Assembly: GCF_027942865.1 (NCBI RefSeq)
Contig: NC_134526.1
Coordinates: forward strand, 1,689,001 to 1,753,000
Direction: 5' to 3'
DNA: 64,000 nucleotides
From: Odontesthes bonariensis
Taxonomy: Eukaryota > Chordata > Actinopteri > Atheriniformes > Atherinopsidae
Shown: piece after piece, positions 15,101-59,174 of the stretch
How positions within the stretch are numbered: the stretch's first letter is position 1
How the letters are laid out: every line of letters starts with the position of its first letter
Translations under genes and position numbers: made by a program
Notes under the pieces: model-generated
Seen by the model: only the letters and a program-made list of their open reading frames with translations
Told to the model about the DNA's origin: nothing
Database searches by the model: none

Positions 15101-17224
15101 TGCTGTGATAAAAACGGGGTTTTGGTGTAAATGAGAGGCCAAACCGCAGGGAAATATCTGCGTCTTCCTATCGTGTAAACGGGGCCTAAAACATGGGAAA
15201 ACTAAAAACTAAACATGGACTAAAAACCAAAACGTAACCTAAAATATAAAACTTAAAACATAAGTCCTGTGAAGTGACAAAGTATACACAAGAGTAATAT
15301 GTGTGTCTAATACCTTTGGCATTGGCACCCAATAAATAGGATAAATATAATCATTATTTATTAATTCAACCATCTTTAACTTGAATAATGAATAACTACA
15401 TAACTTAATTCTCTTCCTGTTATTCCCTCCTCAGACTGAGCGGCTGTAACCTCTCAGAGAGAAGCTGTGCAGCTCTGTCCTCAGCTCTCAGCTCCCAGTC
15501 CTCCAGCCTGACAGAACTGGACCTGAGTAACAACAACCTGCAGGATTCAGGGCTGAAGCAGCTGTCTGTTGGACTGCAGAGTCCAAACTGTAACCTGGAA
15601 GCTCTCAGGTCAGGATTCATTCAACTGTTCAGCTGCTGATCATTTTAATTCTGCTTTACAGTCATGGATGAACAGCTGACCTGTTCAGGATGGTGTCTGC
15701 TGTTGGACTTTTCTCTCAGTTTCTGCCATTTGTGTTGTTTCCTGCAGCCTGTCAGGCTGTCTGATCACAGAGGAAGGCTGTGCTTCTCTGGTCTCAGCTC
15801 TGACCTCCAACCCCTCCCATCTGAGAGAGCTGGACCTGAGCTACAACCATCCAGGAGACTCAGCAGTGAAGCAGCTCTCAGCTGGACTGGAGGATCCACA
15901 GTGGAGGCTGGACACTCTCAGGTATGGAGAGCTCTGCTGCAGCATCACACAATGTCTGATGGAGGAGGAATCATCTGCAGACCAGTCATCCTCCACAGTT
16001 ACACAGTATAGCAACACCACCCCCCTAACAAGCAGCTTTCCACAGAGGGACAGCACTGAAACAGCTTAGGAAGGGCCCAAAGGATCCTTTGCTCAAGTCC
16101 TGGTACCAGACGCTCCAGGACACCTTCAGGTGTTCTTTGACCACGCCTGGATAGGTCGGAGCTCTTTTGATAGGATGAGGAGGGCACACTCTATATTAGG
16201 CAGGTGGTCATAATGTTATGGCTGATCGGTGTATAAATATGTCAGACACAGTTATGAAACATCAGTCCCAGAAAGAAGTTTCTGACTAATTTTCATGTTA
16301 TTTTTCTGTCATTTTTTCTGTTTCTCGTTATAAGAAAGAAACATGGTGACTTTATTCATCCAGTTAAAGGGACATTTCTGTGTTTCTGAAGTGGGGCTGT
16401 GTGACGTCCTCATGAGCAGTCAGCATCTCTCTCAGTGTAGAACAAAGTGTGTGTGAGAGCCATGTAATGTCCATGTTTAATGCTGAAAGAGACGGTGCTG
16501 CTCTGACCCCCCTCCTCCTTTCAGGGTGGAGCCTGCTGGAGAACGATGGCTGACACCAGGTCTGAGGAAGTGTGAGTGTGTTCTTCATCTGATTCATGAC
16601 ATCCAGCCATCTTCACACTGTCACATCACTCATTGATCAAAGTGAACAGATGATAGATCAATAACTGCAGCTGGACTGTGTTTGTTCTCTCCATCAGATT
16701 CCTGCCAACTCACAATCGACACAAACACAGTGAACTGGAGACTGAAACTGTCTGACAACAACAGGAAGGTGACATGGGAGGAGGAGGTTCAGTCATATCC
16801 TGATCATCCAGACAGGTTTTATGGCTGGCCTCAGCTGCTGTGTAGCAATGTTCTGACTGGTCGCTGTTACTGGGAGGTCGAGTGGAGAGGAGAGGTTCAT
16901 ATATCAGTGAGTTACAGAAGAATCAGCAGGAGAGGAGGCAGTGACTGTGTGTTTGGATACAATGATCAGTCCTGGAGTCTGATCTGCTCTGATGGAGGTA
17001 AATACTCAATGAGGCACAATAACAGACAAACATTCATCTCCTCCTCCTCTGTCGGTAACAGAGCAGCAGTGTATGTGGACCGTCCTGCTGGAACTCTGTC
17101 CTTCTACAGAGTCTCCTCTGACACACTGATCCACCTCCACACCTTCAGCACCACATTCACTGAAGAACCTCTGCATCCTGGATTCTGGTTAGGTTCACAT
17201 GGTTCCTCAGTGTCTCTGTGCTGA
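12..17224 (+). CDS. nlrc3-like: Gene A: NLRC3-like receptor (FISNA-NACHT-LRR-B30.2), 5' end outside window
   Basis: Inferred coding exons: 12-116, 5112-5213, 5517-5621, 10840-10918, 11081-11288, 11436-13272, 15435-15608, 15748-15921, 16525-16571 and 16698-17224 (stop TGA). Each is bounded by AG and GT, and phases join without a stop, giving about 1119 codons. The order is three short N-terminal modules (motif PSCVSM), a [12 protein letters not shown] exon, a helical linker, FISNA, NACHT (Walker A GVAGIGKT near 11714-11737, Walker [10 protein letters not shown]), two LRR exons and a C-terminal B30.2/SPRY. This is the fish-specific NLR-C layout; family members are cytosolic immune NTPases. The start-codon exon must lie left of the window, since the gene B equivalent begins with a separate MDQCED exon. 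Introns are swollen by minisatellites and transposons. Odd: an in-frame 54-bp duplication at 12856-12963. Family assignment is firm; the ligand and exact function are unknown. Confidence 0.88.
342..1999. repeat. 35-bp minisatellite, about 47 copies, in gene A intron
   Basis: Head-to-tail copies of a 35-bp unit (core GAACAAAGTCAGCTGCTTTA) run from 342 to 1999. Unit length is constant apart from a 1-bp addition near 746. Variants include TTTA versus TTAA in the core and AGTCT versus AGACT at the unit join. Between about 841 and 1200 the two core variants alternate almost strictly, giving a 70-bp higher-order repeat. There are no spacers, so it is not CRISPR-like. It lies between coding exons 12-116 and 5112-5213. 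Confidence 0.95.
2271..2640. repeat. A-rich retroelement-like sequence, possible LTR fragment
   Basis: Runs of AACTAAAAAC-type sequence with ACAAGA, CATGAC and GACGTAACAGAG. They resemble the right half of the LTR-like elements at 26976-27450 and 14703-15279, but no termini or target duplication were found. It immediately precedes the G-rich minisatellite and may be where that array arose. The open frames here are not convincing genes. Confidence 0.3.
2717..4727 (+). repeat. G-rich 15-16-bp minisatellite (GGGGCTGTGGTTCTT), about 130 copies
   Basis: About 2.0 kb of head-to-tail GGGCTGTGGTTCTT-type units with 3 or 4 G and 2 to 4 T at the joins. Unit length therefore drifts between 14 and 17 bp and long stop-free frames appear on both strands by chance. 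Internal blocks are themselves duplicated: the unusual GGGCCTATGG/GGGCCTGTGG series at about 3745-3800 recurs at about 4117-4175. Every unit has a G run on the + strand, so clustered G-quadruplex potential is strong. It lies in a gene A intron. Confidence 0.95.
5112..5213 (+). CDS. nlrc3-like: Gene A N-terminal module exon, copy 2
   Basis: A 102-bp exon with acceptor CCTGTTAGCAG and donor GTGAGT, in the same phase as its neighbours. It encodes a [13 protein letters not shown] module ending PSAQQ. Its flanks (TGATGTCTCTGATGAGATTA and following at 4879 and 5296) repeat about 417 bp later, showing that an exon plus intron unit was duplicated. It is more diverged from the other two modules than they are from each other. 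Confidence 0.78.
5517..5621 (+). CDS. nlrc3-like: Gene A N-terminal module exon, copy 3
   Basis: A 105-bp exon with acceptor TATTCGCAG and donor GTGAGC. It encodes the same kind of module as 12-116 ([13 protein letters not shown], then [11 protein letters not shown]). The downstream intron closely matches both the sequence after 116 and the gene B intron after 41414. Its exit phase matches the 79-bp exon at 10840. Confidence 0.8.
6055..6770 (-). pseudogene. L2-type LINE, 3' part of the RT ORF and 3' tail
   Basis: Minus-strand frames encode [35 protein letters not shown] and [19 protein letters not shown], followed by a short C-terminal tail. These match the thumb and C-terminal part of L2/CR1-group reverse transcriptases and parallel the intact LINE at 17993-21217. 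A frame change lies near 6474. The tail at 6055 is the reverse complement of a tail seen at 55470-55580, so the family is present elsewhere in the window. Confidence 0.75.
6770..7606. mobile_element. hAT-like non-autonomous element with GGATCA-rich ends
   Basis: The left end has a CGGATCAG...CACGGATCGGATCATT cluster followed by an A run. The right end has the inverted motif ...GATCCGTTGCACCACT at about 7580-7602. The ends look like imperfect inverted repeats of a fish hAT-type element, and it cuts a LINE reading frame at about 6770. Inside are a (GATA)n tract (7386-7432) and a LINE-like 3' tail (ACTTTATTAATCCCGAGGGA). Superfamily assignment rests on remembered fish repeats. Confidence 0.45.
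7607..10169 (+). mobile_element. Helitron-like element, 3' end at 10169 (hairpin plus CTAG)
   Basis: The right terminus is a palindromic AAATTTCTTCAGAAATTT hairpin followed by TCTAG, then a host T within the LINE. The same terminal sequence closes four other copies in this window. Hairpin plus CTRR and insertion before T are Helitron hallmarks. The 5' end is not fixed; it may lie anywhere between about 7607 and 8200. The body holds 8000-8600 sequence without recognisable coding potential and the 21-bp minisatellite. Confidence 0.5.
8609..10022. repeat. 21-bp minisatellite (TTTAAAGGGACAGTTCGCC-type), about 67 copies
   Basis: Head-to-tail 21-bp units contain the self-complementary TTTAAA and a variable trinucleotide position (GCC, ACC, GGCC followed by ACT/TCT/GCT/CCT). 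Period 21 is divisible by three, so both strands keep long open frames of seven-residue repeats (LKGQFAS on +, NCPFKEA on -). There is no start context, splice context or homology supporting translation. It sits inside the Helitron-like element. Confidence 0.95.
10170..10315 (-). pseudogene. LINE reverse transcriptase fragment ([10 protein letters not shown] motif)
   Basis: On the minus strand this stretch encodes the RT palm motif [11 protein letters not shown] followed by [10 protein letters not shown]. It ends where the Helitron-like element begins. It is the 5' remainder of the truncated LINE whose 3' part is at 6055-6770. The piece carrying the YADD active site between them is missing. 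One side abuts the 26-bp target duplication, so this was already 5'-truncated on insertion. Confidence 0.7.
11436..13272 (+). CDS. nlrc3-like: Gene A FISNA-NACHT exon
   Basis: A 1837-bp exon with acceptor TTCATTCAG and donor GTGAGT. It starts with the FISNA stretch ([28 protein letters not shown]), then RQEDIFK and NACHT with [17 protein letters not shown] and the sensor arginine context [14 protein letters not shown], then the winged-helix region ending with [15 protein letters not shown]. The remaining 200 residues form a variable linker. In gene A this linker lacks the roughly 50-residue segment present in B and C, and it has an 18-residue repeat ([18 protein letters not shown]) twice. ATP-dependent oligomerisation is known for NACHT proteins; specificity is unknown. 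Confidence 0.92.
13461..15341 (-). mobile_element. Non-autonomous Helitron-like element in gene A intron
   Basis: Read on the minus strand it begins A|TCCTATTTATTGGGTGCCAA at 15341 and ends with GGCACCCATC, an AAATTTCTTCAGAAATG hairpin and TTCTAG|T at 13461. The 5' TC, 3' CTAG, hairpin and A/T insertion site fit Helitrons. The subterminal TGGGTGCCAAT/ATTGGCACCCA inverted repeat is more like Helitron2/Helentron elements. Copies at the same intron position in genes B and C show it predates the duplications. No Rep/helicase ORF was seen. Confidence 0.6.
14703..15279. mobile_element. Solo-LTR-like element (TGTCA...TGACA) with 5-bp target duplication
   Basis: It starts TGTCAAG and ends GTGACA, flanked by AAGTA at 14698-14702 and 15280-15284. 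Genes B and C lack it at the same Helitron position, so it is younger than the duplications. TG...CA ends and a 5-bp duplication are typical of LTR retrotransposon integration. A second member is at 26976-27450. Inside is (GGCAA)n at about 14905-14931 and a further insert to about 15187 ending GTGTAAACGGGGCC, probably a MITE. Confidence 0.6.
15435..15921 (+). CDS. nlrc3-like: Gene A two leucine-rich-repeat exons
   Basis: Two exons of exactly 174 bp, at 15435-15608 and 15748-15921, in identical phase. The first encodes [18 protein letters not shown], then [19 protein letters not shown]. The second encodes [18 protein letters not shown] and [19 protein letters not shown]. These are ribonuclease-inhibitor-type LRR pairs, and the 174-bp LRR exon size is usual for this family. 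The second-exon donor is GTATGG; the first is GTCAGG, weaker but conserved in genes B and C. Confidence 0.88.
16060..16235. repeat. Probable dispersed repeat in gene A intron (absent from B and C)
   Basis: The sequence up to TCATAATGTTATGGCTGATC at about 16208 resembles a common fish interspersed repeat end, as remembered. The corresponding introns in B and C hold different sequence. No target duplication was identified. Confidence 0.35.
16698..17224 (+). CDS. nlrc3-like: Gene A B30.2/SPRY exon
   Basis: A 527-bp terminal exon following a 47-bp linker exon (16525-16571, [17 protein letters not shown]). It encodes a PRY-SPRY domain with [21 protein letters not shown], then [19 protein letters not shown] and [20 protein letters not shown], and ends SVSLC-stop. 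B30.2 domains bind proteins and are common C-terminal partners of fish NLR-C. Between the NNRQT and VGNRAAVY motifs it has only four serines, where genes B and C have long serine runs. Confidence 0.9.
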
Positions 17225-17874: not shown

Positions 17875-20800
17875 ATAATAATAAAATAATGAATTTTATT
17901 TATAAAGCACTTTACATTAAAACAATCTCAAAGTGCTACAGTGCAAGCTTAAAAGAAAAGAGGGGCACAATGTTAAAAAGTGCAATAAAATATTAAAAAG
18001 CTTTCTTAAAAAAATAGGTTTTTAGGCTACGTTTAAAAGCATCAGTGGTCTGTGGGGCCCTCAGATGGTCTGGGAGGGCGTTCCACAGCCTTGGAGCTGC
18101 AGAACAAAAGGCCCGGTCACCCATAGTGCGGAGCTTGGTTCTGGGAGCTTTGAGGGTGTGCAAAGCTGCGGATCGACGGGTGCGTGTGGGGGGTTGGGGG
18201 GTGAGGAGTTCTTTGAGGTATTGGGGGGCATGTCCGTGAATGCACTGGTGGGTGAGGAGGGAAACCTTGTACTCAATCCTGAGTGGGACAGGGAGCCAGT
18301 GGAGAGATTTGAGGATGGGGGTGATGTGGTCAAATTTGCGCACCCTCATCAGGATCCTGGCAGCGCTGTTCTGGATGTATTGCAGTTTCTGGATGTTCCT
18401 GCCAGAGATCCCGATGAGGAGTGCATTACAATAGTCCAGCCTGGAAGAGACAAAGGCGTGGACAAGCTTTTCTGCATCAGCCAGGGTAAGGGTTGGGCGG
18501 AGTTTGGCTATGTTCCTGAGGTGATAGAAAGACGTTTTGCAGAGATGTTTGATGTGGGTGTCAAAAGTGAGTTGTGGGTCAATTTTGACACCTAGGTTGG
18601 TGACAGAAGTGGAGAGGGGGATGTCTTGACCAGTGAAGGTGATGCTGGTGATGGTGGAAGAGCGGAGCTGGTGTGGGGTGCCAACCAGAATGGCTTCTGT
18701 TTTGGAGCTGTTGAGTTGAAGGAAGTTGTGCTTCATCCACGTCTCAATCTCCTCCAGACAGGTGGTCAGTGTGGATGTTAGTAGGGGGGCAGTGGAAGTG
18801 GGAGCTGTTCGGAGATATAGTTGTGTGTCATCAGCATAGCAGTGGTAGGGTATCCCATGCTTGCTGATGATCTTGCCTATGGGAAGCAGGTAGAGGGTGA
18901 AGAGGGTGGGTCCCAGCACAGAGCCCTGGGGGACACCACAGATGACCTTGTGTGTGTGTGATTTCGCTTTGCCCAGGGCTACATATTCAGTTCTGTTTGT
19001 CAGGTAGGAGGTGAACCAGTTTAAAACATTTTCTGAGAGACCAATGGTGTGTTGCAGACGGTGGAGGAGGATGCTGTGGTCAACTGTGTCAAAAGCAGCT
19101 GTTAGGTCAAGGAGGATGAGGAGAGATGGGGAACCAGAATCCGATGCCATCAGAAGGTCATTTGTGACCCTGACCAAGGCTGTTTCTGTGCTATGGCCAG
19201 GGCGAAAGCCAGACTGAAACTTTTCAAAGAGGTTATTGTGTTTGAGGTGATCATGAAGTTGTGCAGCGACTACTTTTTCCAGAACTTTTGAAAGAAATGG
19301 TAGATTTGAAATGGGTCTGTAATTTGAGAAGATTTCTGGATCCAGGGTGGGTTTTTTAAGCAGTGGTCTGATGACAGCGGTTTTTAGTGCAGATGGGATA
19401 TGGCCAGCCAGGAGGCAGTGATTTATGATTTTGGTGATAACAGGAGATATGGCAGAGATGTTGGCCTTGAGCAGGGCTGAAGGGAAAGGGTCCAGAGCAC
19501 AGGTGGAGGGTTTCATTTTTCTGACAATATCCTCCACCTTTCCCTGTGTGATGTTGAGAAAGGAGCAGAGAGGTTGGACATTTTCAGGCAGTGGGTCGGC
19601 AGTTTGAGGGGGCGGAGCAACAGTGGTGGAAAGATGTGAGCGGATGTTGGCGACTTTTTCTCTGAAAAAAGTGATGTGCATGTTGCACCTCTCATCAGTG
19701 ACCTCAGAGTGGGAGAGTGATGGTGGTTTGAGAAGGTGATTTATTGTTGAGAAGAGTTGTTTTGAATTTCCAGGGCTATTGTTTATAATGGTGGAATAGA
19801 ATCTTGACCGTGCATCACTCAGAGCTGCTGCGTATGCCTTCCTGTGCTCCTTGTACGCCTGTTTGTGGACAGTCAGCCTGGAGGTTTTGAGCCGCCGCTC
19901 AAGGACACGCCCAGCCGCCTTCATCTTACGCAGCTCACAGGTGTACCAAGGTGCTGAGCGTGAGAAGGAAACTGTCCTGGATGTTAAAGGGGCGTGAACG
20001 TCCAGTAGGATACTCAGGGAATGGTTGTAGAAATCCACTGAGTCGGCAGCAGAGAGGAAATCAGCAGAGCCAGAGGAGAGAAGATGAAGGTCGAGGGCCA
20101 GGGCATCTGCATTAATCTTTTTCAGATTTCTGAATTTTATCTGCCGCTTGGGTTTAGTGTAGGGGGAAGGAAAAGGCAGCTCCATTGACACAACCTTGTG
20201 GTCGGAGACACCAAGATCATAAACCAGTAGGTTGCTGATGGGGGCAGAGTTTGAGATGACCAGATCGAGTGTGTGTCCCTTGGAGTGTGTAGGGACATTG
20301 ACATGTTGTTGTAAGTTGAGAGAGTCCAGAAGCTGAAGGAATTCAACTGCGGGGAGACAGGAAGGGGTGTCGACATGAATATTTATATCTCCCAAAATTA
20401 TGATATTGGCAGAGGAAGTACAGAGAGTTGTGAGGAGATCGGATATTTCGGGGATGAAGGCAGAGTTAGATTTGGGGGGACGGTAGATAAGGAGGACAGT
20501 CATGGGGAAAGGGGGCTTAACTTTAAACGCTAGGCATTCACAGGAGGATGTTGCAGGCAGTGGAGTGGGGGAAAACTCCAGGTCCTGTCTGTGGATGACA
20601 GCAAGGCCACCACCGCGCCCAGTGGTGCGAGCTGCCTCCAAGTAGGTGTATCCGGGGGGACAGGCCTCATTTAGGGCGGAGTAAACCTCTGGCTGGTGCC
20701 AGGTTTCTGTCAGACACATGAAATCAAGTCCCTTTTCCCTGATATGTTCTTCAATCAGGGTGGATTTATTGTTGATAGACTGGGTGTTAAAGAGTTCAAA

Positions 20801-21605
20801 TTTAAGCAATGACTGTGGAGTGAATTTTTGTACAGGTCGTAACACATTGAAATCCACTCCACGTAGACTGGAATCCATGTCATGGGCAGTATCCAGCCGA
20901 GTGTGCGTGAATCTCGCGGTATTTCCCCCGCTGGAACACAGAGATCTCGCGGTGTTTCCCGTGTTGATTGTTGCCGGAGCGACGGCGTTCTGATGACGCA
21001 TCAAACGTGCGACGGGTGACCAGAGAGATGGGATGTTTGTAGCAGAGCAGCTCGGCTGGTCATGGAAAATGAAGTTTCGTCCCGAGCCTCTGTGGATGTA
21101 ACGAGGGCGGCGATGAAGTCCAAGCTCTTTGATGATGGAGACGTCAAATCCAGGAGCGGCCGCAGGTCTTAGTCGGCGAAGTTGCGCGACGGAGTAGCTG
21201 AAAGCCATGCTGACCACGGAAAAATGCTGCAGTCAGCTTCCAAACAGCGCTAGCTCGGAGCCGCAGCCGGCCAGCCAGATACAACCGGCCGTTTGTCAAG
21301 CGATGTGGTGGTCGGATCCAGAGAGCCCCTTCCAGGTGGAACAGGGCCGTCAGCTGTGGTTGTCTGTAGCTGGTAGGGAGCACTAGTAGCTGGTGGCTAC
21401 CCCACCATAAGAAGATGGGTGAGTCGCTGCTCCAAAGTCCCAAAAAGAGTGCCGGCAGTACGTACGGCGAAAAAAGCAGCTTTGCTAATAAAATATCTAT
21501 CTAAAATAAGGCTATAGAAGCAATTTGCGGGTGGAGAAGCGGCGAACAATCAGCGCCAGCGTCCTCTCCCTGTCCTCTCCCTCTCCCTGTCATCATGCAC
21601 CAGTC
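17875..21605 (-). mobile_element. Near full-length L2-type LINE
   Basis: A 3.7-kb insertion with its 3' tail (ATTAATAATAATAAAATAATG side) at the left and 5' UTR at the right. TATTA occurs at both junctions (17870-17874 and 21606-21610). Downstream of gene C the flanks run together uninterrupted (about 57885-57910), which is the empty site. The 5' UTR of about 390 bp, the intact ORF and clean ends indicate recent retrotransposition. Confidence 0.8.
17993..21217 (-). CDS. Intact L2-clade LINE ORF: endonuclease plus reverse transcriptase (1074 aa)
   Basis: The ORF has no stop or frameshift. The N-terminal 150 residues lack a recognised domain. An apurinic-type endonuclease follows (FNTQSINNKSTLIEEHI, LTETWH, ILGDINIHVD, SDHKVV). 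The reverse transcriptase follows with SGFRPGHSTETALV, LDLTAAFDTVDH, GVPQGSVLGPTLF and the catalytic YADD in YHCYADDTQLYL, then a thumb with FYHLRNIAKLRP and LKSLHWLPV. The order and motifs match the L2/CR1 group. There is no separate ORF1; the start shown is the first ATG of the frame. It probably encodes active enzyme for target-primed reverse transcription, and the 1074-codon length fits a complete ORF2. Confidence 0.9.
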   Translation of the reverse strand: MVSMAFSYSVAQLRRLRPAAAPGFDVSIIKELGLHRRPRYIHRGSGRNFIFHDQPSCSATNIPSLWSPVARLMRHQNAVAPATINTGNTARSLCSSGGNTARFTHTRLDTAHDMDSSLRGVDFNVLRPVQKFTPQSLLKFELFNTQSINNKSTLIEEHIREKGLDFMCLTETWHQPEVYSALNEACPPGYTYLEAARTTGRGGGLAVIHRQDLEFSPTPLPATSSCECLAFKVKPPFPMTVLLIYRPPKSNSAFIPEISDLLTTLCTSSANIIILGDINIHVDTPSCLPAVEFLQLLDSLNLQQHVNVPTHSKGHTLDLVISNSAPISNLLVYDLGVSDHKVVSMELPFPSPYTKPKRQIKFRNLKKINADALALDLHLLSSGSADFLSAADSVDFYNHSLSILLDVHAPLTSRTVSFSRSAPWYTCELRKMKAAGRVLERRLKTSRLTVHKQAYKEHRKAYAAALSDARSRFYSTIINNSPGNSKQLFSTINHLLKPPSLSHSEVTDERCNMHITFFREKVANIRSHLSTTVAPPPQTADPLPENVQPLCSFLNITQGKVEDIVRKMKPSTCALDPFPSALLKANISAISPVITKIINHCLLAGHIPSALKTAVIRPLLKKPTLDPEIFSNYRPISNLPFLSKVLEKVVAAQLHDHLKHNNLFEKFQSGFRPGHSTETALVRVTNDLLMASDSGSPSLLILLDLTAAFDTVDHSILLHRLQHTIGLSENVLNWFTSYLTNRTEYVALGKAKSHTHKVICGVPQGSVLGPTLFTLYLLPIGKIISKHGIPYHCYADDTQLYLRTAPTSTAPLLTSTLTTCLEEIETWMKHNFLQLNSSKTEAILVGTPHQLRSSTITSITFTGQDIPLSTSVTNLGVKIDPQLTFDTHIKHLCKTSFYHLRNIAKLRPTLTLADAEKLVHAFVSSRLDYCNALLIGISGRNIQKLQYIQNSAARILMRVRKFDHITPILKSLHWLPVPLRIEYKVSLLTHQCIHGHAPQYLKELLTPQPPTRTRRSAALHTLKAPRTKLRTMGDRAFCSAAPRLWNALPDHLRAPQTTDAFKRSLKTYFFKKAF

Positions 21606-24110: not shown

Positions 24111-24905
24111 GTGAGATGGGAAATTCTTATTTGCCCATCTGGTTTTAAAAGTGCGTTGACTTTTCTCTGACCCCATTCACCCTGTGATCCTTTTGTTTTG
24201 TCATCTAAGGGAAACCAGTTCTAAATTCATCAGGAGGAGGTTTATGGTTGGAATCAGCTTCCAAAACCCATTTCACAAATTGATGGTAAATCTTTGTTTA
24301 AAAAGACCTTAAAAAAGTACCTGTGTAATGGTAAGGGCCTTGTGGACAGATTTAGTATGTATGGAACTATCATGACTGGATTAGATGGAAGGAAACTGTA
24401 TTTATGTTCTGGATTTCATGTAATTTGTAATGGAATTGTGAATTTTGATTAATGCATTATATAATGTACTCAATGCTATGAAATTATTTTTTGTAAAGAA
24501 CTTTATTTGTAATGTATTTTAATGAGGTCCCCAGGAAGAGTAGCGGCAGCTTGCTGCAGCTAATGGGGCTCCTAATAAACAAATAAACAAAATAAATGGT
24601 TGACACTTCCTGGGGAGCTTAGCGCAGGGGATAATAAAGGGGCTACCTCGAAAACCTCTTTGTTATCTTAGATCCTGAACAGAGTAAGGGGGCCATTTGT
24701 TTTTTGAGATACCCCCCCCCCCCCCCTGCTTAGGGTATATAATGAATGTACAGTATGTAATGCTGTTCTTGGCTCTCCTGTCTCTGATTTTGTTCAGTAA
24801 AGGAGGGACTTAAAATGCTGTAAATAAACTTAAAGACAAAATCTAGATTTTCTCTTATTTGAGTTGTCTTCTTACCCACTTTGATAAAAAAAAAAAGTCC
24901 ACAAC
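24111..24905 (+). repeat. 5' LTR of the endogenous retrovirus, interrupted
   Basis: It shares with the 3' LTR the start TGTGAGATGG/TGAGATGG, TTCACCCTGTGA, GGAGGTTTATGGTTG, a poly-C tract, a TATA-like TATATAATG, AATAAA-like signals and the end CTTACCCACTTTGAT plus an A run. An inserted LINE tail occupies 24251-24595. TTGGCGTCACAAACAGGAC follows at about 24911 as a candidate primer-binding site, but I could not assign the tRNA. Confidence 0.75.
24251..24595 (+). mobile_element. LINE 3'-end insertion in the 5' LTR
   Basis: A 345-bp insert flanked by ATGGTTG at 24244-24250 and 24596-24602. The 3' LTR is uninterrupted here. It encodes a C-terminal WNQLPKPISQIDGKSLFKKT-like stretch and ends GCAGCTAATGGGGCTCCTAA followed by an (AAACAAAT)-like tail, typical of a non-LTR retrotransposon 3' end. 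Confidence 0.7.
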
Positions 24906-25263
24906 AACCTTGGCGTCACAAACAGGACATAAGGACGCTTGGTCAGTCTGGAGACTCAAAATTGTCCTCAGTCCACCTACGTTGAAAGAGGGGAGTCCTA
25001 GAGCCTGCTGGCCAATTGAATCCAGACCATAGATTTGCAAATATATCTGGATGAGAAGTTGCTCTAATATATATATTTTTTAAAGTTTCTTATTTAACTT
25101 TTTTACGCTGTGGAGTTGGGAGAGGAGGACATAAGCTGAGGAGCCAGTTACCCTGTAAGGCATACAGGGAGGTTCTTATTGGTAACAATAAGATATAGCG
25201 AAACAAAGGGTTTTGCGGGTGGTCTTTGTACTTTCTACACCTTATAAACGAGGAAGCCAGACA

Positions 25264-25463
25264 CGTTGCTGAAAAAGGAAAAAATAATGGGTTCCGGAAC
25301 CTCAAAGGCATCAGGGGTGCCTTCTTCTCCAGACTCTGCAATCTATAAAATAATGAAAGAAAAAATGGAGATGATTGTGTTAAATGTGCTTTAATTTGGG
25401 AAAATAAGTTTGGTTTTACACAGGGTGGAAGTTTGAGTGTGAACCAGTTAAATAAAGTAAAAG
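25264..25463 (+). repeat. Retroviral gag-leader segment, left copy of a 200-bp direct repeat
   Basis: Near-identical to 26085-26284, with small differences (for example single-base indels near AAATGGAGATG and AAATGTGC). Each copy spans the end of the leader, the gag start with MGSGTSKAS (glycine at position 2, a myristoylation-type start) and about 140 bp of gag. The two copies bracket the NLR-derived block. Confidence 0.85.
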
Positions 25464-26084
25464 GACAGAGTGACAGCGGGGTGGTCCACATACACTGCTG
25501 CTCTGTTACAGACAGAGGAGGAAGAGGTGGAGGTGGAGAAGGAGGAGGAGGAGGAGGAGGAGGAGGAGGAGGAGGAGGAGGAGGAGGAGGAGGAGGAGGA
25601 GGAGGATCAGTGTGTCAGAGGAGACTCTGTAGAAGGACAGTGCCAGCATGACGGTCCACATACACTGCTGCTCTGTTACCGACGGAGGAGGAGGAGGAGG
25701 AGGAGGAGGAGGAGGTGGAGAAGGAGGAGGAAGAGGAAGAGGAAGAGGAAGAGGAAGAGGAAGAGGAAGAGGAGGAGGAGGAGGTGGAGGAAAAGGTGGA
25801 GGTGGATCAGTGTGTCAGAGGAGATTCTGTAGAAGGACAGAGTGCCAGCATGACGGTCCACATACACTGCTGCTCTGTTACCGACAGAGGAGGAGGAGGA
25901 AGTAGAGGAGGTGGATAAGGAGGAGGAGGAAGAAGAGGTGGATCAGTGTGTCAGAGGAGGAAGAAGAGGAGGAGGAGGAAGAGGTGGATCAGTGTGTCGG
26001 AGGAGGAGGAGGAGGAGGAGGAGGAGGAGGAGGAGGAGGAGGAGGAGGAGGAGGAGGAGGAGGAGGAGGAGGAGGAAGAAGAGG
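25464..26084 (-). repeat. NLR B30.2-derived block with GGA tracts inside the provirus
   Basis: The block repeats, three to four times, sequence found on the + strand of the B30.2 exons of genes B and C (GGATCAGTGTGTCAGAGGAG, GGTCCACATACACTGCTGCT, TCTGTTACCGACGGAGGAGG), separated by long GGA/GGAAGA tracts. On the minus strand it still reads [19 protein letters not shown]. The unit order is that of the NLR exon joined head to tail through its GGA run. It is host sequence within retroviral gag, not part of the virus family. Open frames of poly-G/E/R here are repeat artefacts. Confidence 0.8.
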
Positions 26085-26107
26085 CGTTGCTGAAAAAGGA
26101 AAAAATA

Positions 26108-28072
26108 ATGGGTTCCGGAACCTCAAAGGCATCAGGGGTGCCTTCTTCTCCAGACTCTGCAATTTATAAAATAATGAAAGAAAAAAGTGGAGATGATTGT
26201 GTTAAATGGCTTTAATTTGGGAAAATAAGTTTGGTTTTACACAGGGTGGAAGTTTGAGTGTGAACCAGTTAAATAAAGTAAAAGAGTTGATGGATGGAGA
26301 TTGGGAGGAAAAGAAAAATAAGAAAAAAAATTAAAAAACAAGATTTAGATAAGAGAGGAATATGGGTAAAGTGTTGGAATGAATGGATTACGGAAGCTGT
26401 ACGTAGGCAAAGAAAGTCGGAACTAAAACAGATGGCAGGGGGGAAAGATTTGTCCGGGGACGTGGGGAACAGACATGACAATGCTGGTCATACTGTTGAT
26501 GTTCCCACGTTTCCACCTTCATATAGACCTAGTGATGCTTCACCCTCCTGTCCTAATGCTCCATTACAGATGGATTTGCAGGCCCTCCAGATGGCTGACC
26601 TGGATCTAGACTCCCGTCCCCCTCCACAGCCCGTGTGTCAGCCTGAAAGTCAGCCCGCAGGTCAATCCGCACATCAGGTTGCAGAACAGGAAGAACAGTC
26701 TGCAGACGAGCAACTACCGGGATCATCGAAGAGCCAGAAACAACTTATACTTCTACTAAACTCGCCATAGCTCCATGGCTACAAAGTGGAACACAGCCTA
26801 AAGTTGAGAAAGAGGAAGCGGTTCATCATTTCCCTATGCTGGAAGTGGCCGGAACCAATTAACCTCAGTTGGTGTTAAGACCATGGACTGCAGCTGACAT
26901 CCAAGCCAGCGCTGCTCTCCTCCCAGATCCTGTGGAGGACGGTAGAAAGTTTGCTGCAGAACTTAAAGCTTTATGTGTCAGGGTGGGGTGGTGAGGTAGG
27001 ACACGGACTTTCAAAAGAAAACTGGGTTTATTTCTCACAAAAACAAAGATCAAACAAAAAGCGCGGCTGAGCCGGATTCAAAAACTTAACTGTGAAAAAA
27101 CAAACAAAAGACTTGGCATGGCATGGAATAAATACTTAGCTTGGAAGACAACGTGGCATGGCATGAAGGGAAATCACAGGAGAGTAGGTAACGGACATTG
27201 GTAGGTACGAAAGGATCTGAAAAAACTGACAAACTAAATAGAGGGCTGGGAGTGATTGGAGACAGGGTGCAGCTGGTGACTATGACTAACAGGTGCAGTG
27301 AATGAACTAATGATGTAAATGAACTAATGACCAGAGTGAGGGGAAAAACAATGACAAGACTAGAACTCAAAACCAAGACATGAACTGAAAACCAAAACGT
27401 AACCTAAAACATAAAACTTAAAACATGAGCAGAGTCCCGTGGGCGTGACATTATGCCATGAAATGGCTGAGGTTGCCAAATCCTGCAGTGCGTCTTTTCC
27501 TGGCTACAGGTGGTGAAGATGGCGATTTAAATCATCGTAATGGCCCATGGTATGCTGCCATAGAACATCTGTATGCTGATTTGATCACAACATTTCCACA
27601 GAGGAGTGATTGTGCTGTGCTACAGCAAGTGAAACAACGTCCTGATGAGACTATCTCTGATTTTCTTCATCATATGGAAGAAGCATTCAATAAACACTCG
27701 GTTTTGGAACGCCCCGCTGACTTTACTGTTTTGGGGCCCTGGGAGAAAATGCTGTGTGGGTACATCATGGAAGGACTTCTCCCTGAGAACGCTGCGCAAA
27801 CCAAGACTCTTTATGTTGGATGGAGACATGGAGTACGGTTTGAGGAACTGAGAAGACATGCTTTACACAGCGATGACGTTATCACTGACAGGAAGAAGAA
27901 ACAAGTAGATAAAAGAGAGACTGAGTTGCATAATGCTGCCTTGACTTTGTATTTTGGCACCAATCAACGTGGTTCTCGAGGTCGGGGAAGAGTACAGTGG
28001 CCGCGCTCCGATGCTTGCCATAATTGTGGACAGTTGAGACACTGGAGGAATGAATGTCCAGAGAAATTGTAG
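26108..28072 (+). pseudogene. gag: Retroviral gag remnant (MA to NC)
   Basis: After the right leader copy, frames continue with a charged matrix-like stretch, a proline-rich part (26540-26760), and a capsid-like region (27458 onward). It ends in a nucleocapsid basic stretch and one zinc knuckle, CHNCGQLRHWRNEC (C-X2-C-X4-H-X4-C). Capsid and nucleocapsid would package the genome. The frame is broken by stops or shifts near 26213-26330 and 26770 and by an inserted LTR-like element at 26976-27450. It cannot make a full-length protein. Confidence 0.75.
26976..27450. mobile_element. Solo-LTR-like element inside gag, TTATG target duplication
   Basis: 475 bp starting TGTCAGGG and ending GGGCGTGACA, flanked by TTATG at 26971-26975 and 27451-27455. 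It shares GACTTTCAAAAGAAAACTGG and GTGAAAAAACAAACAAAAGA-like parts with 14703-15279. Two independent 5-bp duplications with TG...CA ends support an LTR rather than a DNA element. The parent retrotransposon is not in the window. Confidence 0.65.
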
Positions 28073-28719: not shown

Positions 28720-30010
28720 GAATGCTAGACAAGTGGCAGATCTTTTGGATGCTATTTTGTTGCCCATTTCCATTTCAGCATCTGATGATGGACTTCATTG
28801 AGTTAACACCTGCTGAAGGGAAGAAATATTGTTTGGTGGTTGTGGACATGTTTTCTAAATATGTTGAAGCTTTTCCAACAAAACACGCAGACAGCTTTGT
28901 TGACAGAGGTTCTTCCCCGCTGGGGGGTCCCAGAGTTAATTTCCAGTGATAACGGGACACATGTTGTTAACAAAGCTTTGCAGGAAATCAGTAAGCTTTT
29001 AGGTTTCCAGTTAAAGACACATTGTGCATATCACCCACAATCAGGGGGAGCAGTAGAGCGAGAAAATGGAATATCAAAGAATAAATTGGTTAAATGCTGT
29101 GAAGAAACAGGGTTGTCCTGACCAAATGCTCGCCCTCTGGTTCTCATGTATATGCGGATGAGAAATAGATCCAGACAAGGGTGAAACCATAGTGTAGATA
29201 TTGGGGGGGTCCAAATTAGAACTGTAGACCATATTCCAGCGGGGGGTCTGGGGGTCCTCCTCCAGAAGATTTTTTATTTCTTAGATGTCATTTCCTACAT
29301 TCTAGTGCATTTTAGGGTGACCTGTACAAATCCTAAACCCATGAAATATATACTGTATAGAACAGTAGAATCAGCCCTTGGTCCAAATGTGAGCCCTTCC
29401 CAAAATATTTATATTGAAAATGTTGTACAATTTTCATATAGGTGTATTGATAAAGATGTGCTTGTATAGAACATAGTTTTTAAGAAAAGAAAGGAACAGC
29501 AAGGGACTGATCTAGGAAAGAAGGAGGAATTACTCACATAATAGACAAAATATTGGAGGGGACAGATTGGTACTTTCCCAACATTGGGGGGGACGTGTCC
29601 CCCTCAATGTCTATGGTGGTTACGCCCATTTCGAAAGGACTAATTTGAGTCCTTTCGAAATCCTTTTTGGGAGGCCCGCAAACACAGGAGGAGGACCCAA
29701 TGCTAACTTAAGCATGCTAACAACTGCTCATTTCATGTTGGAATATTGTATGGTTCTGTCACGTTCTCTTTCTCTGTCTCATCAGACGGTGAAAGCTGCC
29801 TTACCCCCAGTGGCTGATAGACCCCTGCACCAGTTCCAGCCAGGACAGGGTGCTGATCACAGACACCAGGAGATGTCACTGGAGAGACAAACGGTGGAGA
29901 GGTCCATTCCAGATTCTGCTGGTGACCCACACTGCCGTGAAGGTCCAGGGAAGAGACACCTGGGATCATGCTACGCACTGCAAAGTGTTCACCACACCAT
30001 CTGGTTCTGA
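28720..30010 (+). pseudogene. pol: Retroviral integrase remnant
   Basis: The core domain shows MDFIELTPAEGKKY (first D), SSDNGTHV (second D) and AYHPQSGGAVERENG (the final E region), in two frames that change near 28900. After an hAT-like insert at about 29172-29632 a C-terminal part follows (NLSPFEILFGRP), and in another frame the RWRGPFQILLVT (GPY/F-type) end. Integrase would join viral DNA to the host; with frame changes and an insertion it is dead. Confidence 0.75.
29172..29632. mobile_element. hAT-like insertion in the integrase region
   Basis: The right end reads GGGGGACGTGTCCCCCTCAA, then TGTCTATGGTGGTTACGCCC. The left end has AACCATAGTGTAGATATTGG plus a G run, an imperfect inverted match. 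Such CCATAGAC/GTTACGCCC ends are typical of fish hAT-type elements as remembered. The retroviral frame resumes directly after. The target duplication is unclear. Confidence 0.5.
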
Positions 30011-30234: not shown

Positions 30235-32443
30235 ATGCAGTTGTATGGAAGATGGTCTGTTCTAATACTGGTGATTGGTATTGCAATTATTTTGATCACT
30301 CCTGTTTTTATTTGGGAAAAGGTACAGCAAAGACAGTTTGTGATTAATCTGAGTAACTATCCCAATAATACTCATCAGCTGACTCGAAGAGAGATTCATC
30401 ACTTCCCTGACTTCATGCTGATAACATCTGGTGGCAGCTGATGCATCAAACGGCGAGGAAAATAAGAAATGACAGTTGCTACGTTTGTTGTTTGACTCCA
30501 CATGCTATTAATGATCAACCAGTGTTGGTACCTGTTCCTATTGATTCTGCTTATACTCTAGCTACTTTCTTTACAGACCGTCAACAGAACCAGCAGGTGG
30601 AGGTCATTTTTCCTTGGGTGAGGAATTATACCGTAAGGCAAAAAAGAAATGTTAGTAGATTCTTTATTGAGACTAATTCAACATGTGCTATTACAGGAAC
30701 TCTGTATAGATTTCGGGTTTGTAGGAATCCAATAAGAGATCCAGATATTTGTATAGCACAGGAAGAAACCACACCTTATTTCCTGGGAAAGACGGAAGGT
30801 TGTAAAACTATTATACCTGCTTCATGTGCCTTAATCAACAGAAATAAATCCAGGCCATGCTCTATCAGGACTAATCCTTATACCATTTCAGGATCTTCAG
30901 TCCCAGTTCCCTATGTGTTAACTCTTAATCTTACAGCTTTACCGGATGGAAGTAAATTGTATGGTTATGCAGGTAAATTAATCCCAGTCTTTATTATTAT
31001 TTATCCTAGTAGAGATGGGTACTCGTGTCCTAAGAACATGGTTTGGATGTGTGGAAATAGATCATATTTGTATCTGCCTGCTGACTGGTCTGGAGTATGT
31101 TATTTAGCTCATTTACTCCCTACTGTCACTACTTATGATTCAATCACACCATCATTAGAAAGGAAGACGATGCTTAAACGGCAAAGGAGAGCTAGGATTC
31201 CACACTGGAAAGGGATTTTGGGGACACTCATTCCTAGTTTTGGTGTAACTGAGGAAGGTTTCACTTTGCTGACTAAGGAACAGCAGCAGGGCAACGTAGC
31301 TTTAAATGTGGTCATTGCAATCACTGCCCTACTATAGTTCAAGGTAAAACTTTCGAAGATACACATAGTCAAAGAACATATGAGATACAGCATTTTATTA
31401 ATTGTAAAACAACATTTGTGATTTATAAACTGGAATGTCCCCTCTGTAATGTTTTTTACATCAGCAGAACCAAACGCAGGTTACAAGATAGAGTCTCAGA
31501 ACACAAGTATGCGATTAGAACAAAAAATGAGAACTATCCAATGGCTCGTCATTTCAAAGACCAGCACAATAGTAACCCTGCTATTTTAAAAGCTATAGGT
31601 ATTGATCATATACCACAAACAATGAGAGGAGGCGATAGATTAAAACAATTAAACCAGCGAGAGAGCTACTGGATCTTCAAATTAAAAGCTACTTTATATC
31701 CGGGTTTAAATGATGATTTAGAATATTGTCATTTTCTGTAAGCACAAATGTTTACTTTTATATGTGTATTACATGTTTGTTTTTTGATGTTCTTTGATGT
31801 TATCTAATACTTTGTTATATTTGTAGAGACTGCAGAATGAGGCCCCCTGCTGACCACCATTGATATCTCTGTTTGTTTTTCTGTTTTTTGTGGATTACCT
31901 TTGTTAACAAGTGGTTTGCCATTGGCTAATTGGTCCCAACAACACACCTGAGAACACTAATGGAATGGATGTAGGCTTCATGCCGAAACGCGTCGAAGTG
32001 TTTTTAATCATGTTTTGCCCATAAAATAAAGGCATTTTAACTATTAAGAAGATGAGTGCCTTGGTATTCTACAACTTTTGGAATGTTGTACTTTTGTTCC
32101 TGATGTGTCTAATAACATGACTAACATCCATGATAAATTACAGGAGTTGCTGACGACTCAACAGAAAGAAAATATGGGTTCCTCTTGGGATCCTTGGTTT
32201 TGGTTTATTACTAGAGGTGGGACCTCCTGGTTAATAAAGATTGGAGTAATTATTTTCTTTTTCTTTTTGATTTTGCTGTTTCTTTCGTGTTGCATTATTC
32301 CGATGGTTAAAGCTATGGTAATGAGACTGATTAATGTTTCCATGCTGAAAGTTGATACGGATGTAAACTTGATTTCTGTTTGTGATGATTCTGCATCTGA
32401 GAGAACGGACTGCATGGATGAGGATGGGTTTTATGTGGCCTGA
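30235..32443 (+). pseudogene. env: Retroviral env remnant (SU and TM)
   Basis: A start with an N-terminal hydrophobic stretch (SVLILVIGIAIILITPVFI) is followed by a frame break near 30440. A long surface-like region (30441-31337) has many N-X-S/T sites and ends with a furin-type KRQRRAR site and a hydrophobic segment. The frame is then interrupted by a Penelope-like insertion at about 31338-32070. The remainder (32078-32443) holds an ECCTF motif, a transmembrane helix (LIKIGVIIFFFFLILLFLS) and a cytoplasmic tail. It is gamma-type in style. Broken at two or more places; no functional glycoprotein is expected. Confidence 0.8.
31338..32070 (+). mobile_element. Penelope-like element fragment with GIY-YIG-type nuclease end
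   Basis: The frame at 31418-31741 encodes YKLECPLCNVFYISRTKRR, then DRVSEHKYAIR, the pattern of the GIY-YIG endonuclease at the C-terminus of Penelope-like reverse transcriptases. GGCTTCATGCCGAAACGCGT (about 31974-31993) and a polyadenylation signal follow, features I associate with fish Penelope 3' ends. It splits the env remnant. RT is absent, so it is 5'-truncated. Confidence 0.7.
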
Positions 32444-32739: not shown

Positions 32740-33173
32740 TGAGATGGAAAAATTCTTATGTTGACTTCCCTCTGACCCATTCACCCTGTGACCCTTTTGT
32801 TTGGTCATTGAGGGAAAGCAGATTTTTAATCCATCAGGGGGAGGTTTATGGTTGACACTTTCTGGGGAGGTTAGCTCAAGGGAGTAATAAAGGGGCACCT
32901 CGTAAACTGTGTTATCTCAGATTCAGAACAGAGAAAAGGGGACAATTCATTCTTTGAAGATAGCAGCCCCCCCCCCCCCCCGATTGGAGTATAAAAGGAA
33001 TGTGTGTGATTCTCCTCTTCTCTCTTTTTCCTGACATTTTGCAGACAGGAGACTGTTCAAACGCTATTTGCCTTTGAATAAAATATAAAGAAAGACAAAA
33101 TCTGGATTTTCTCTTATTATTATTATGAGTAGTCTTCTTACCCACTTTGATAAAAAAAAAAAAATCCACTTCA
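32740..33173 (+). repeat. 3' LTR of the endogenous retrovirus
   Basis: It begins TGAGATGGAAAAATTC after a purine tract CAGAAGAAAGG (polypurine-tract-like). It has a poly-C run at 32969-32982, TATA-like GTATAAAAGG, AATAAAATATAAA and the same CTTACCCACTTTGAT end. It lacks the LINE insert of the 5' LTR, so that insert came after integration. Confidence 0.75.
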
Positions 33174-34469: not shown

Positions 34470-35047
34470 TCAGCACAGAGAAAACCAGGAACCAGGTGAA
34501 CTGAACCCAAACCCAGGATGCAGAGGTTCTTCAGTGAATGTGATGCTGAAGGTGTGGAGGTGGATCAGTGTGTCAGAGGAGACTCTGTAGAAGGACAGAG
34601 TGCCAGCAGGACGGTCCACATACACTGCTGCTCTGTTACCGACGGAGGAGGAGGAGGAGGAGGAGGAGGAGGAGGAGGAGGAGGAGGAGGAGGAGGAGGA
34701 GGAGGAGGAGGATGTTTCTCTGTTATTGTGCCTCACAAAGTAACCAAACTGATCAGAGCACCTCAGACTCCAGGACTGATCATTGCTTCCAAACACACAC
34801 TCTCTGTCTCCTCTCCTGCTGATTCTTCTGTAACTGACTGATATATAAACTCTTCCTCTCCACTCGACCTCCCAGTAACAGCGACCAGTCAGAACATTTC
34901 TACACAGCAGCTGAGGCCAGACATCAAACCTGTCTGGATGATCAGGATATGACTGAACCTCCTCCACACGTGTCACCTTCCTGTTGTTGTCAGACAGTTT
35001 CAGTTTCCTGTTCACTGTGTTTGTGTCGATTGTGAGTCGGCAGGAAT
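34470..35047 (-). CDS. nlrc3-like: Gene B B30.2/SPRY exon with 23-serine run
   Basis: A 578-bp terminal exon, 51 bp longer than gene A's, all accounted for by TCC codons: (GGA)23 on the + strand at 34644-34712 gives 23 serines between NNRET and VGNRAAVY. The rest is a regular PRY-SPRY domain ([35 protein letters not shown]). The run falls in a loop between strands by comparison with the gene A sequence, so the fold could tolerate it. Confidence 0.9.
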
Positions 35048-38000
35048 CTGATGGAGAGAACAAACACAGTTCAGCTGCAGTTATTGATCTATCATCTGTT
35101 CACTTTGATCAATGAGTGATGTGACAGTGTGAAGATGGCTGGATGTCATGAATCAGATGAAGAACACACTCACACTTCCTCAGCCCTGGTGTCAGCCATC
35201 GTTCTCCAGCAGGCTCCACCCTGAAAGGAGGAGGGGGGTCAGAGCAGCACCGTCTCTTTCAGCATCAAACATGGACATTACATGGCTCTCACACACACAC
35301 TGTTCTACACTGAGAGAGATGCTGACTGCTCATGAGGACTTCTCACAGCCCCACTTCAGAAACACAGAAATGTCCCTTTAACTGGATGAATAAAGTCTCT
35401 GAATCTGCTGAATATGTTTCCTTACAGGCTGAGCATTAACCAGCAGATGGTTGCTGGTATGTATGTTTTCTTTGGGGCCCATTTATCTGAGGAATGACAC
35501 GATAAACCTCCATCATTCTGACAGATCCACGCTGTTTTAAGGGGACACCGGCTAATGCTGGCAGACATTTCCTCCTCCTCCTCACAGAGGTTTGCTCCTC
35601 CCTCGCTGCTCGGCATCACTTCTAACCAGCTGATGAGCCGGTTAGAAGGGAAATGATTAAAGCAGCAGAGCTCTCCATACCTGAGAGTGTCCAGCCTCCA
35701 CTGTGGATCCTCCAGTCCAGCTGAGAGCTGCTTCACTGCTGAGTCTCCTGGATGGTTGTAGCTCAGGTCCAGCTCTCTCAGATGGGAGGGGTTGGAGGTC
35801 AGAGCTGAGACCAGAGAAGCACAGCCTTCCTCTGTGATCAGACAGCCTGACAGGCTGCAGGAAACAACACAAATGGCAGAAACTGAGAGAAAAGACTCCA
35901 ACAGCAGACACCATCCTGAACAGGTCAGCTGTCCATCCATGACTGTAAAGCAGAATTAAAATGATCAGCAGCTGAACAGTTGAATGAATCCTGACCTGAG
36001 AGCTTCCAGGTTACAGTTTGGACTCTGCAGTCCAACAGACAGCTGCTTCAGCCCTGAATCCTGCAGGTTGTTGTTACTCAGGTCCAGTTCTGTCAGGCTG
36101 GAGGACTGGGAGCTGAGAGCTGAGGACAGAGCTGCACAGCTTCTCTCTGAGAGGTTACAGCCGCTCAGTCTGAGGAGGGAATAACAGGAAGAGAATTAAG
36201 TTATGTAGTTATTCATTATTCAAGTTAAAGATATTTGAATGAATAATTAATGATTACATTAATCCTAATTATTTGGTGCCAATGCCAAAGGCATTAGACA
36301 CATATTACTCTTGTGTATATATAATATTATTTTTCCGTTTCCGCCCTATATTTTGACGGCTAACCAGTCTAGCACCGATGGTCCGACCGGCATAAAAAGC
36401 ACACCGCTGCGCAACGACCTCGATCGGTGTGCTATTACGTTTGGCTCTCATTAGTCGAAAGGAATTCCGGCAAAATGGGAAAAAGTGGGAAAATTGTGGA
36501 TGGGAATATGCATTGAAAATGAAAAAAATAGGGTAGTTTTTGGCAGTTTGCGCAGACCTCATTCAAAGTTTATATGACAGGAGACTCTCGGCTTTAACTG
36601 AACTAAAGGTTTTTTTGATACATCATACAGCTTTAACACAACGGCAGTTTACGTTTTAGGAAGACTACATCTCAGCTGAGGTGTCTCTCCCAATCAAATC
36701 CCCACTCTTATTTCGATACTGCACCAATTCCTCGAACAAATGTCTCTCATGTCCAAAATATCTGTCTGATCTGGACAAATTTTACTTCAAAACGTAGGCA
36801 TTTTTGTCCTTTTTCACCCAAAGTCACACTCATTGAGCTCTGCCACACAGATTTTTTACAAATTGCCTCTGAGCCCAGAGGTCGCCTCTCCATTTCTATT
36901 ATAAAGACATAAAATTCAGGTTAAAAATTATTTTTAAACTGTCATAAAAAACGAGCCACACATAGTAGCCAAATGAAAATTACACCGCTGGCTTCTGACG
37001 GTTCAAGAATTAATTGGATAAAACTTTTACTTTTTGAACAGCGACCGTTTGTTTGAGACTGTCGAGTGCAGTCAAAATTATAGTGCGATTTTAAGAGGCC
37101 ATAGTGAGCGTACATGTCAGTGACACAGACGAGCCGCACCTGTTCCTGTTACCGGGGCAACGCCTTGTTAGCCTGCTCCTGTTACCGGGGCAACGCCTTG
37201 TTAGCCTGCTCTGTTCTCAGACTGCTTATGAGGGCAGAGCCAAGATGGCTGCCCTGTTATAACAGCTTCATGTTATAAATCTGATCTGCTTTTCATCTTT
37301 AAACTGATAGTGAGGGGAAGTTTGAAAATACCCACAATGCAATGGGAAAATGCATTGAAAAGCACTTACCGAGGCCATTTTGAGCAATAAAATCTTTATT
37401 TTAAACAGGACCTTGATAAAAATGATATTACTGTCTTCATCAGACCTATCTTAGGACAAGACTATCGATGGAAAAATCAATTGAAAAGCACTTAACGAGC
37501 CAAAAATGCCAAAAACTGCCCTATTTTTGAGGCCTCATAACTCAGCCATACGACATCACAGAGACCTCATTCAAAGTTTATATGTGACAGGAGACTCTCA
37601 TCTGAAATTAAGGGTTTGTTGCTAAGGCGGGCCGTAGATTGGCACCCATCAAAATTTCTTCAGAAATTTTCTAGTTATATATTAAAGTGTTGCCACATTC
37701 TTGCAGCGTGTTTCTTTCCTCTTGATGTAAACTGATCTGATGGAACAGTTTGCTGTGAATCTGTGTTTTCTACAAACTGAAATTATCTGAGACATAACTC
37801 AGTTATTTTCTCTCCTTTTAACAAGTAAACAGAGCATTTAAAACATATTTATCTCTATAATTACACAGCTTTGTTGGAGGCTTTGACCACTGGCAGCAGC
37901 CTCAGAAGAACCTCCTCTGAAGCAGAGTATTTCTTCAGCTCAAACACATCCAGATGTTGTCCTGATGACAGTAAGATGAAGCCCAGAGCTGACCACTGAG

Positions 38001-58545: not shown

Positions 58546-59174
58546 TCAGCACAGAGACAACCAGGAACCATGTGACCAGAACCCAAACCCAGGATGCAGA
58601 GGTTCTTCAGTGAATGTGGTGCTGAAGGTGTGGAGGTGGATCAGTGTGTCAGAGGAGACTCTGTAGAAGGACAGAGTGCCAGCAGGACGGTCCACATACA
58701 CTGCTGCTCTGTTACAGACAGAGGAGGAGGAGGAGGAGGAGGAGGAGGAGGAGGAGGAGGAGGAGGAGGAGGAGGAGGAGGAGGAGGAGGAGGAGGAGGA
58801 GGAGGAGGAGGAGGAGGAGGAGGAGGGGGAGGAGATGTCCGTTTCTCTGTTATTGTGCCTGACAGAGTAACCAAACTGATCAGAGCAGCTCAGACTCCAG
58901 GACTGATAGTTCCATCCAAACACACAGTCTCTGTCTCCTCCTTTCCTGCTGATTTCTCTGTAACTCACTGATATAGAAACTCTTCCTCTCCACTCGACCT
59001 CCCAGTAACAGCGACCAGTCAGAACATTTCTACACAGCAGCTGAGGCCAGACATCAAACCTGTCTGGATGATCAGGATATGACTGATCCTCCATACGTGT
59101 CACCTTCCTGTTGTTGTCAGACAGTTTCAGTCTCCTGTTCACTGTGTTTGTGTTGATTGTGAGTTGACAGGAAT
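58546..59174 (-). CDS. nlrc3-like: Gene C B30.2/SPRY exon with about 35 serines
   Basis: A 629-bp terminal exon, in frame. The GGA run on the + strand at about 58723-58828, with one GGGGGA variant, encodes about 35 serines and one proline. It is the longest of the three. The PRY-SPRY core motifs remain ([29 protein letters not shown]). The frame is kept because the expansion is in whole codons. Confidence 0.9.

Follow-up and report, generated by a model that had tools for sequence, protein, structure and literature searches.

The window, by which we mean the whole 64,000-nucleotide stretch of DNA that was analysed, contains three NLR genes (A, B and C) with a provirus between A and B. Gene A lies on the + strand, with its NACHT part at 11327-13276 and its B30.2 exon at 16646-17224, while genes B (34470-39930) and C (58546-63048) lie on the - strand, with B30.2 exons at 34470-35099 and 58546-59226. 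The exon makeup is that of the fish NLR-B30.2 family, with FISNA, NACHT and PRY-SPRY, as recognised in gene B by Pfam (FISNA 118.7, NACHT 117.3, PRY 60.9 and SPRY 32.3 bits) and in gene C by PRY (52.8 bits) and SPRY (28.6 bits); the NACHT parts of A and C are known by nucleotide alignment only (A to B 98.1%, C to A 98.0%). On the - strand, at 17993-21232, a further long open frame (1079 aa) has by eye the look of a non-LTR retrotransposon that encodes endonuclease and reverse transcriptase.

The B30.2 exons of genes B and C include a serine tract that reads on the + strand as nearly uninterrupted GGA repeats (34644-34712, purity 1.0, and 58721-58834, purity 0.99), and the exon of gene A, in which the homologous segment is 17030-17140, has no long serine tract. 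Of 110 related fish B30.2 proteins, 90 have a run of at least five serines directly before the same anchor; the sample was drawn from the best 120 of 3359 matches after setting aside 10 without a recognisable anchor, and is biased in that the query itself carries the tract. Judging from those best 120 of 3359 matches, the serine tract is a widespread feature of the fish B30.2 family, and we presume the underlying GGA tract to be unstable. In zebrafish, B30.2 exons are reported to undergo gene conversion with one another (PMC4852459), and movement of B30.2 pieces is thus not alien to these genes. Many of the fish B30.2 fragments among the 120 carry automatic venom-toxin-like names even though they match the NLR B30.2 exon; the names are probably artefacts that stem from the domain in common.

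The provirus, in + orientation, has the paired LTRs of an endogenous retrovirus, gag pieces, a protease-like piece and env pieces. Its 5′ LTR (about 24111-24910, ends placed by eye) aligns to the 3′ LTR (about 32740-33172), and no clean target-site duplication was seen by eye around the pair. Nested within the 5′ LTR at ~24250-24595 is an insert of about 346 bases with ATGGTTG on both sides and an AATAAAC-rich tail, whose ends look as though left by a retroposon. Open gag frames lie at 26291-26770 and, with a CCHC zinc knuckle, at 27449-28072 (zf-CCHC 20.7 against a cut-off of 20.8 bits; all six protein matches come from two goodeid species). The protease-like piece scores 19.1 bits for RVP (cut-off 20.7), and the env remains (30411-32443) consist of separate open pieces at 30411-31337 and 32048-32443 that score 22.0 and 14.5 bits for TLV_coat (cut-off 22.5), so that all of the Pfam matches of the viral pieces fall below the curated cut-off; among the 10 proteins scanned, those of 26291-26770 and 29516-30010 had no Pfam match. 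An open frame overlapping the env remains (31277-31741) does not look retroviral by eye and has a single weak Pfam match, below its cut-off; it is perhaps a piece of another retroelement inserted there.

An NLR-derived block within duplicated gag sequence

Between two direct copies of a 200-base viral segment lies a block of 621 bases (25464-26084) that corresponds to the antisense strand of an NLR B30.2 exon, and is therefore antisense to NLR mRNA. A 23-nt core occurs in it three times (25487, 25657 and 25859) and the unit start GGATCAGTGTGTC four times (25604, 25804, 25940 and 25986), joined through GGA tracts of purity 0.83 to 0.99; in the window outside the block, core and unit start each occur once per gene in A, B and C. 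Allowing up to three mismatches, a 46-nt pattern from this segment has four matches in the window, in the three genes and in unit 3, as against none in 100 shuffles, units 1 and 2 being absent from the four because they exceed three mismatches. The NLR origin proposed for the block in the initial annotation is borne out by these matches to the exon segments of A, B and C. Its count of three to four head-to-tail copies can be made more precise: three units have the core, the first of them lacking a unit start, and what remains are two short unit-start fragments.

The flanking copies, at 25264-25463 and 26085-26284, are set apart by a single substitution over 199 aligned sites and by two indels of one base each. 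They had been described as a duplicated leader, and the duplication stands, but leader makes up only 23 nt of the segment; the other 177 nt run from an apparent ATG (25287 in the first copy, 26108 in the second) that we take to be the gag start codon. The second copy is contiguous with the remaining gag. Each copy has one private frame-breaking indel, and no frame lesion common to both was found in the part covered by related proteins. The ends of the block and the ends of the duplication coincide on both sides.

Whether the arrangement belongs to the virus or to this locus can be judged from related gag proteins. All nine protein matches to the gag piece at 26291-26770 come from six species whose genera are in Goodeidae, and within the proteins of limited length that were searched, relatives were found in goodeid fishes only, which would make a host in or near the goodeids probable. 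Two of the nine, P0127 (Characodon lateralis) and P0128 (Ataeniobius toweri), cross the insertion point with neither block nor duplication: by tblastn they match the second copy and continue ungapped into the following gag, while the first copy matches them only up to its own end. Part of their alignment is poor where the frame of the second copy is broken, a stretch for which the match comes from the first copy. The remaining seven begin downstream of the insertion point and are uninformative on the block. Because both of the relatives that span the point are without it, the block is probably no feature of the viral family. Finding the same arrangement in many independent proviruses had been named as the observation that would make it a trait of the viral family; in the two spanning proteins the arrangement is absent, and a family feature is unsupported. 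A pattern scan of a viral contig collection with the gag piece gave four pattern matches and no relative. A third protein, P0129 (Girardinichthys multiradiatus), is gag-like and continues into sequence that matches the pre-env region (29762-29903 of the window), which suggests an internally deleted relative or a gene-model join.

Source and age of the block

Gene B had been put forward as the nearest donor; it is not the nearest copy by distance, and its role as donor is not supported. The segment of gene A lies 8.3 kb from the block in the opposite orientation and that of gene B (34554-34712) 8.5 kb away in the same orientation. As to sequence, over the 46-nt core unit 3 departs from B and from C at one position each and from A at two, whereas over longer alignments unit 3 is 97.1% identical to gene A (103 bases) and 91.8% to gene B (147 bases, including the tract); a gene B donor is not established by these figures. 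At the edges of the tract, unit 1 resembles C, unit 2 resembles B and unit 3 resembles A.

The bases that distinguish the units are missing from A, B and C alike. Units 2 and 3 have in common a base (giving RHAG for RPAG in the antisense reading) that is absent from all three genes and was not seen in the 110 B30.2 matches with an anchor among the best 120 of 3359. Unit 1 carries a cluster of differences, reading VDHPAVTL in antisense where B and C have VDRPAGTL, and VDHPAV occurs in none of the 120 B30.2 matches (best 120 of 3359). Over 54 sites it has 6 differences from unit 3, 6 from gene B and 4 from gene C. Between units 2 and 3 there are differences at 2 of 84 sites and one gap, a divergence indistinguishable from that of the gag copies (p 0.21). 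From these differences we read that units 2 and 3 probably derived one from another after their common change, that the history of unit 1 is a different or a longer one, and that no gene of the window, as it stands, appears to be the donor.

LTRs are identical at integration, and can therefore serve as a yardstick for the duplication. Aligned in two pieces, with 15 gaps left out of the count, the LTRs differ at 61 of 385 sites as against 1 of 199 in the gag copies (Fisher p 5e-11); since they began identical and are now far more diverged, the duplication appears to be much younger than the integration. The comparison presumes a single integration in which sequence exchange has played no part: gene conversion between the neighbouring gag copies would mimic youth, and LTRs of different origin would spoil the yardstick, an exchange between proviruses being possible given the lack of a clean target-site duplication. 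The private lesions of the gag copies are mildly against a late date, because a decaying provirus might have passed some frame lesions to both copies and none is common to them in the part covered by related proteins. Unit 1 and unit 3, moreover, are more diverged than the gag copies (p 0.0004), so that a single recent event with one donor fails to explain everything.

Formation of the block

The junctions have the short homologies that template switching would leave. At the left junction, viral GTAAAAG faces donor GTAGAAG with six of seven bases alike; as good a match is found in 0.2% of 7-mer pairs between the provirus and the gene B exon (0.07% and 0.3% with one side held fixed), for a word length of 7 that was picked after the junction had been seen. 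At the right junction, GAGGAAG (25250-25256, ending 7 bases before the segment) recurs in the tail of the block; this homology is not rare, as 2.6% of 1441 proviral positions have a common word of at least 7 with that tail. Within the block, all four unit starts follow GGA-rich sequence at GGAGGTGGA or a near form of it (by eye, with no chance test), and in genes A, B and C, too, the GGAGGTGGA element stands directly before the unit. This pattern is, on its face, the trace expected of repeated template switching at GGA-like homologies with a return upstream of the point of exit. Sequence copied from another locus and short homology at the junctions are traits of microhomology-mediated templated insertion, and both are present here.

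On balance we favour, with fair but far from full confidence, a post-integration, microhomology-guided templated insertion with flanking tandem duplication, made by a FoSTeS/MMBIR-like error or by end joining of the polymerase-theta type. Long after integration, a replication fork or a broken end within the start of gag would have switched template, its 3′ end, ...GTAAAAG at the end of the segment, pairing with GTAGAAG in some copy of an NLR B30.2 exon. Synthesis would then have entered the GGA tract of the exon and slipped back repeatedly to GGAGGTGGA at the segment's start, so that units accumulated head to tail, and a return to the provirus ~200 bases upstream of the exit would have copied 200 bases of leader and gag twice. 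The order of events, the enzymes, the single event and the germ-line, post-integration timing are all things that we infer. A templated event seeded by the GGA tract, as the initial annotation had it, thus fits the data; a template switch during reverse transcription, in contrast, is disfavoured, because the block is antisense and the gag copies are near-identical beside strongly diverged LTRs, and repair or replication of chromosomal DNA is the setting we prefer. Most likely, then, the block is owed to a later accident in germ-line DNA, in which template switching or break repair was guided by short homologies.

Part of the evidence would suit a history in two steps, in which an NLR/GGA array already existed elsewhere, as a tandemly expanded B30.2 tract or a dispersed NLR-derived repeat, and a piece of it was taken up into a staggered break, fill-in of the 200-base overhangs giving the duplication. 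The difference cluster of unit 1 and the base of units 2 and 3, absent from the window genes, mean that the array may have been heterogeneous before it was inserted. We nevertheless hold this unlikely: the three NLR genes of the window have no more than one unit apiece, units 2 and 3 are alike enough to have arisen with the event itself, 200 bases is long for a stagger, and primed synthesis explains the junction homologies better. An assembly error, with reads of the NLR locus and of the provirus misjoined through GGA tracts and the leader duplicated by the assembler, draws on the error-prone nature of such low-complexity tracts. It is very unlikely in our estimate, though on weak grounds: three differences separate the gag copies and the units are in distinct states, the left end of the block lies outside any GGA tract, and elsewhere in the window three long tandem arrays (342-1999, 2716-4728 and 8612-10022, with units of 35, 15 and 21 bases), 1.4-2.0 kb in length, are resolved.

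That retroviruses can capture host sequence is well established, and the same flanking duplication would result if reverse transcriptase had passed from the viral template to a co-packaged host RNA and from there back to a second template, copying 200 bases twice before integration. We regard such an origin as highly improbable, since a captured host mRNA would be expected in the sense orientation and the block has the opposite one, the gag copies resemble each other far more closely than the LTRs do, and the two gag relatives that span the site are without the block. The preferred reading, an insertion into an already resident provirus, carries a warning that the virus need not be what brought host sequence into a provirus.

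In a wider sense, the block may be a readable case of an unstable coding microsatellite copying part of an immune gene into another locus. One could go further and suppose that template switches arise recurrently from the GGA (serine) tract of fish NLR B30.2 exons, which would shed short B30.2 pieces that are amplified head to tail and land elsewhere, that the same instability feeds the exchange of sequence between B30.2 exons, and that the block is one such fragment caught; we think this generalisation quite unlikely as matters stand. Should such fragments prove common around NLR clusters, they would offer a direct test of how B30.2 diversity arises.

Comparison with known systems

Open-licence literature, surveyed by title, yielded no description of this arrangement, and it is best placed by comparison with processes that share some of its traits. 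Like retroviral transduction of host sequence, it has host gene sequence inside a provirus; unlike it, the block is antisense, flanked by a duplication, apparently post-integration and missing from the two gag relatives that span the site. Templated sequence insertion polymorphisms of class 2, as they have been defined (PMC5110952), come without target-site duplications. The block resembles them in an insert from another locus, microhomology at the junction and the lack of poly(A), but its 200-base flanking duplication sets it outside the definition given there (PMC5110952). Class 1 insertions, which are LINE-mediated, have by the same account a duplication of at least 5 bases in the recipient and a poly(A) tail (PMC5110952); the 200-base duplication agrees with the first of these and the want of poly(A) disagrees with the second. 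Indeed, neither poly(A) nor poly(T) was seen by eye at either end of the block. TTTTA does occur in the complement of the left GTAAAAG, at most 5 bases from the join, and is absent at the join itself and at the start of the duplication. The LINE scheme needs its TTTT/A target at the start of the duplication, and a LINE-mediated insertion was accordingly rejected, there being no poly(A) and the TTTTA near the left junction being misplaced for it.

Rearrangements of the FoSTeS/MMBIR kind combine duplication with templated insertion. The likeness extends to the short homologies at the joins, the copying of distant sequence, the reiterated switches and the flanking duplication; the difference is that the event at this locus is small (0.8 kb), would have been seeded by a microsatellite in the coding sequence of an immune gene, took place in a provirus and has a mechanism read from sequence alone. 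End joining by polymerase theta leaves microhomology, templated inserts and small tandem duplications. These three traits are present in the block, where they have been read from the DNA rather than from genetics, and the insert is longer than is typical of the pathway. Polymerase-theta-mediated end joining is the subject of another report (PMC7368036). The arrangement therefore fits as an example of a known mutational process, templated insertion with duplication, and we would class it as a putative microhomology-guided duplication with templated insertion, for which the two enzymatic routes compared here are candidates only.
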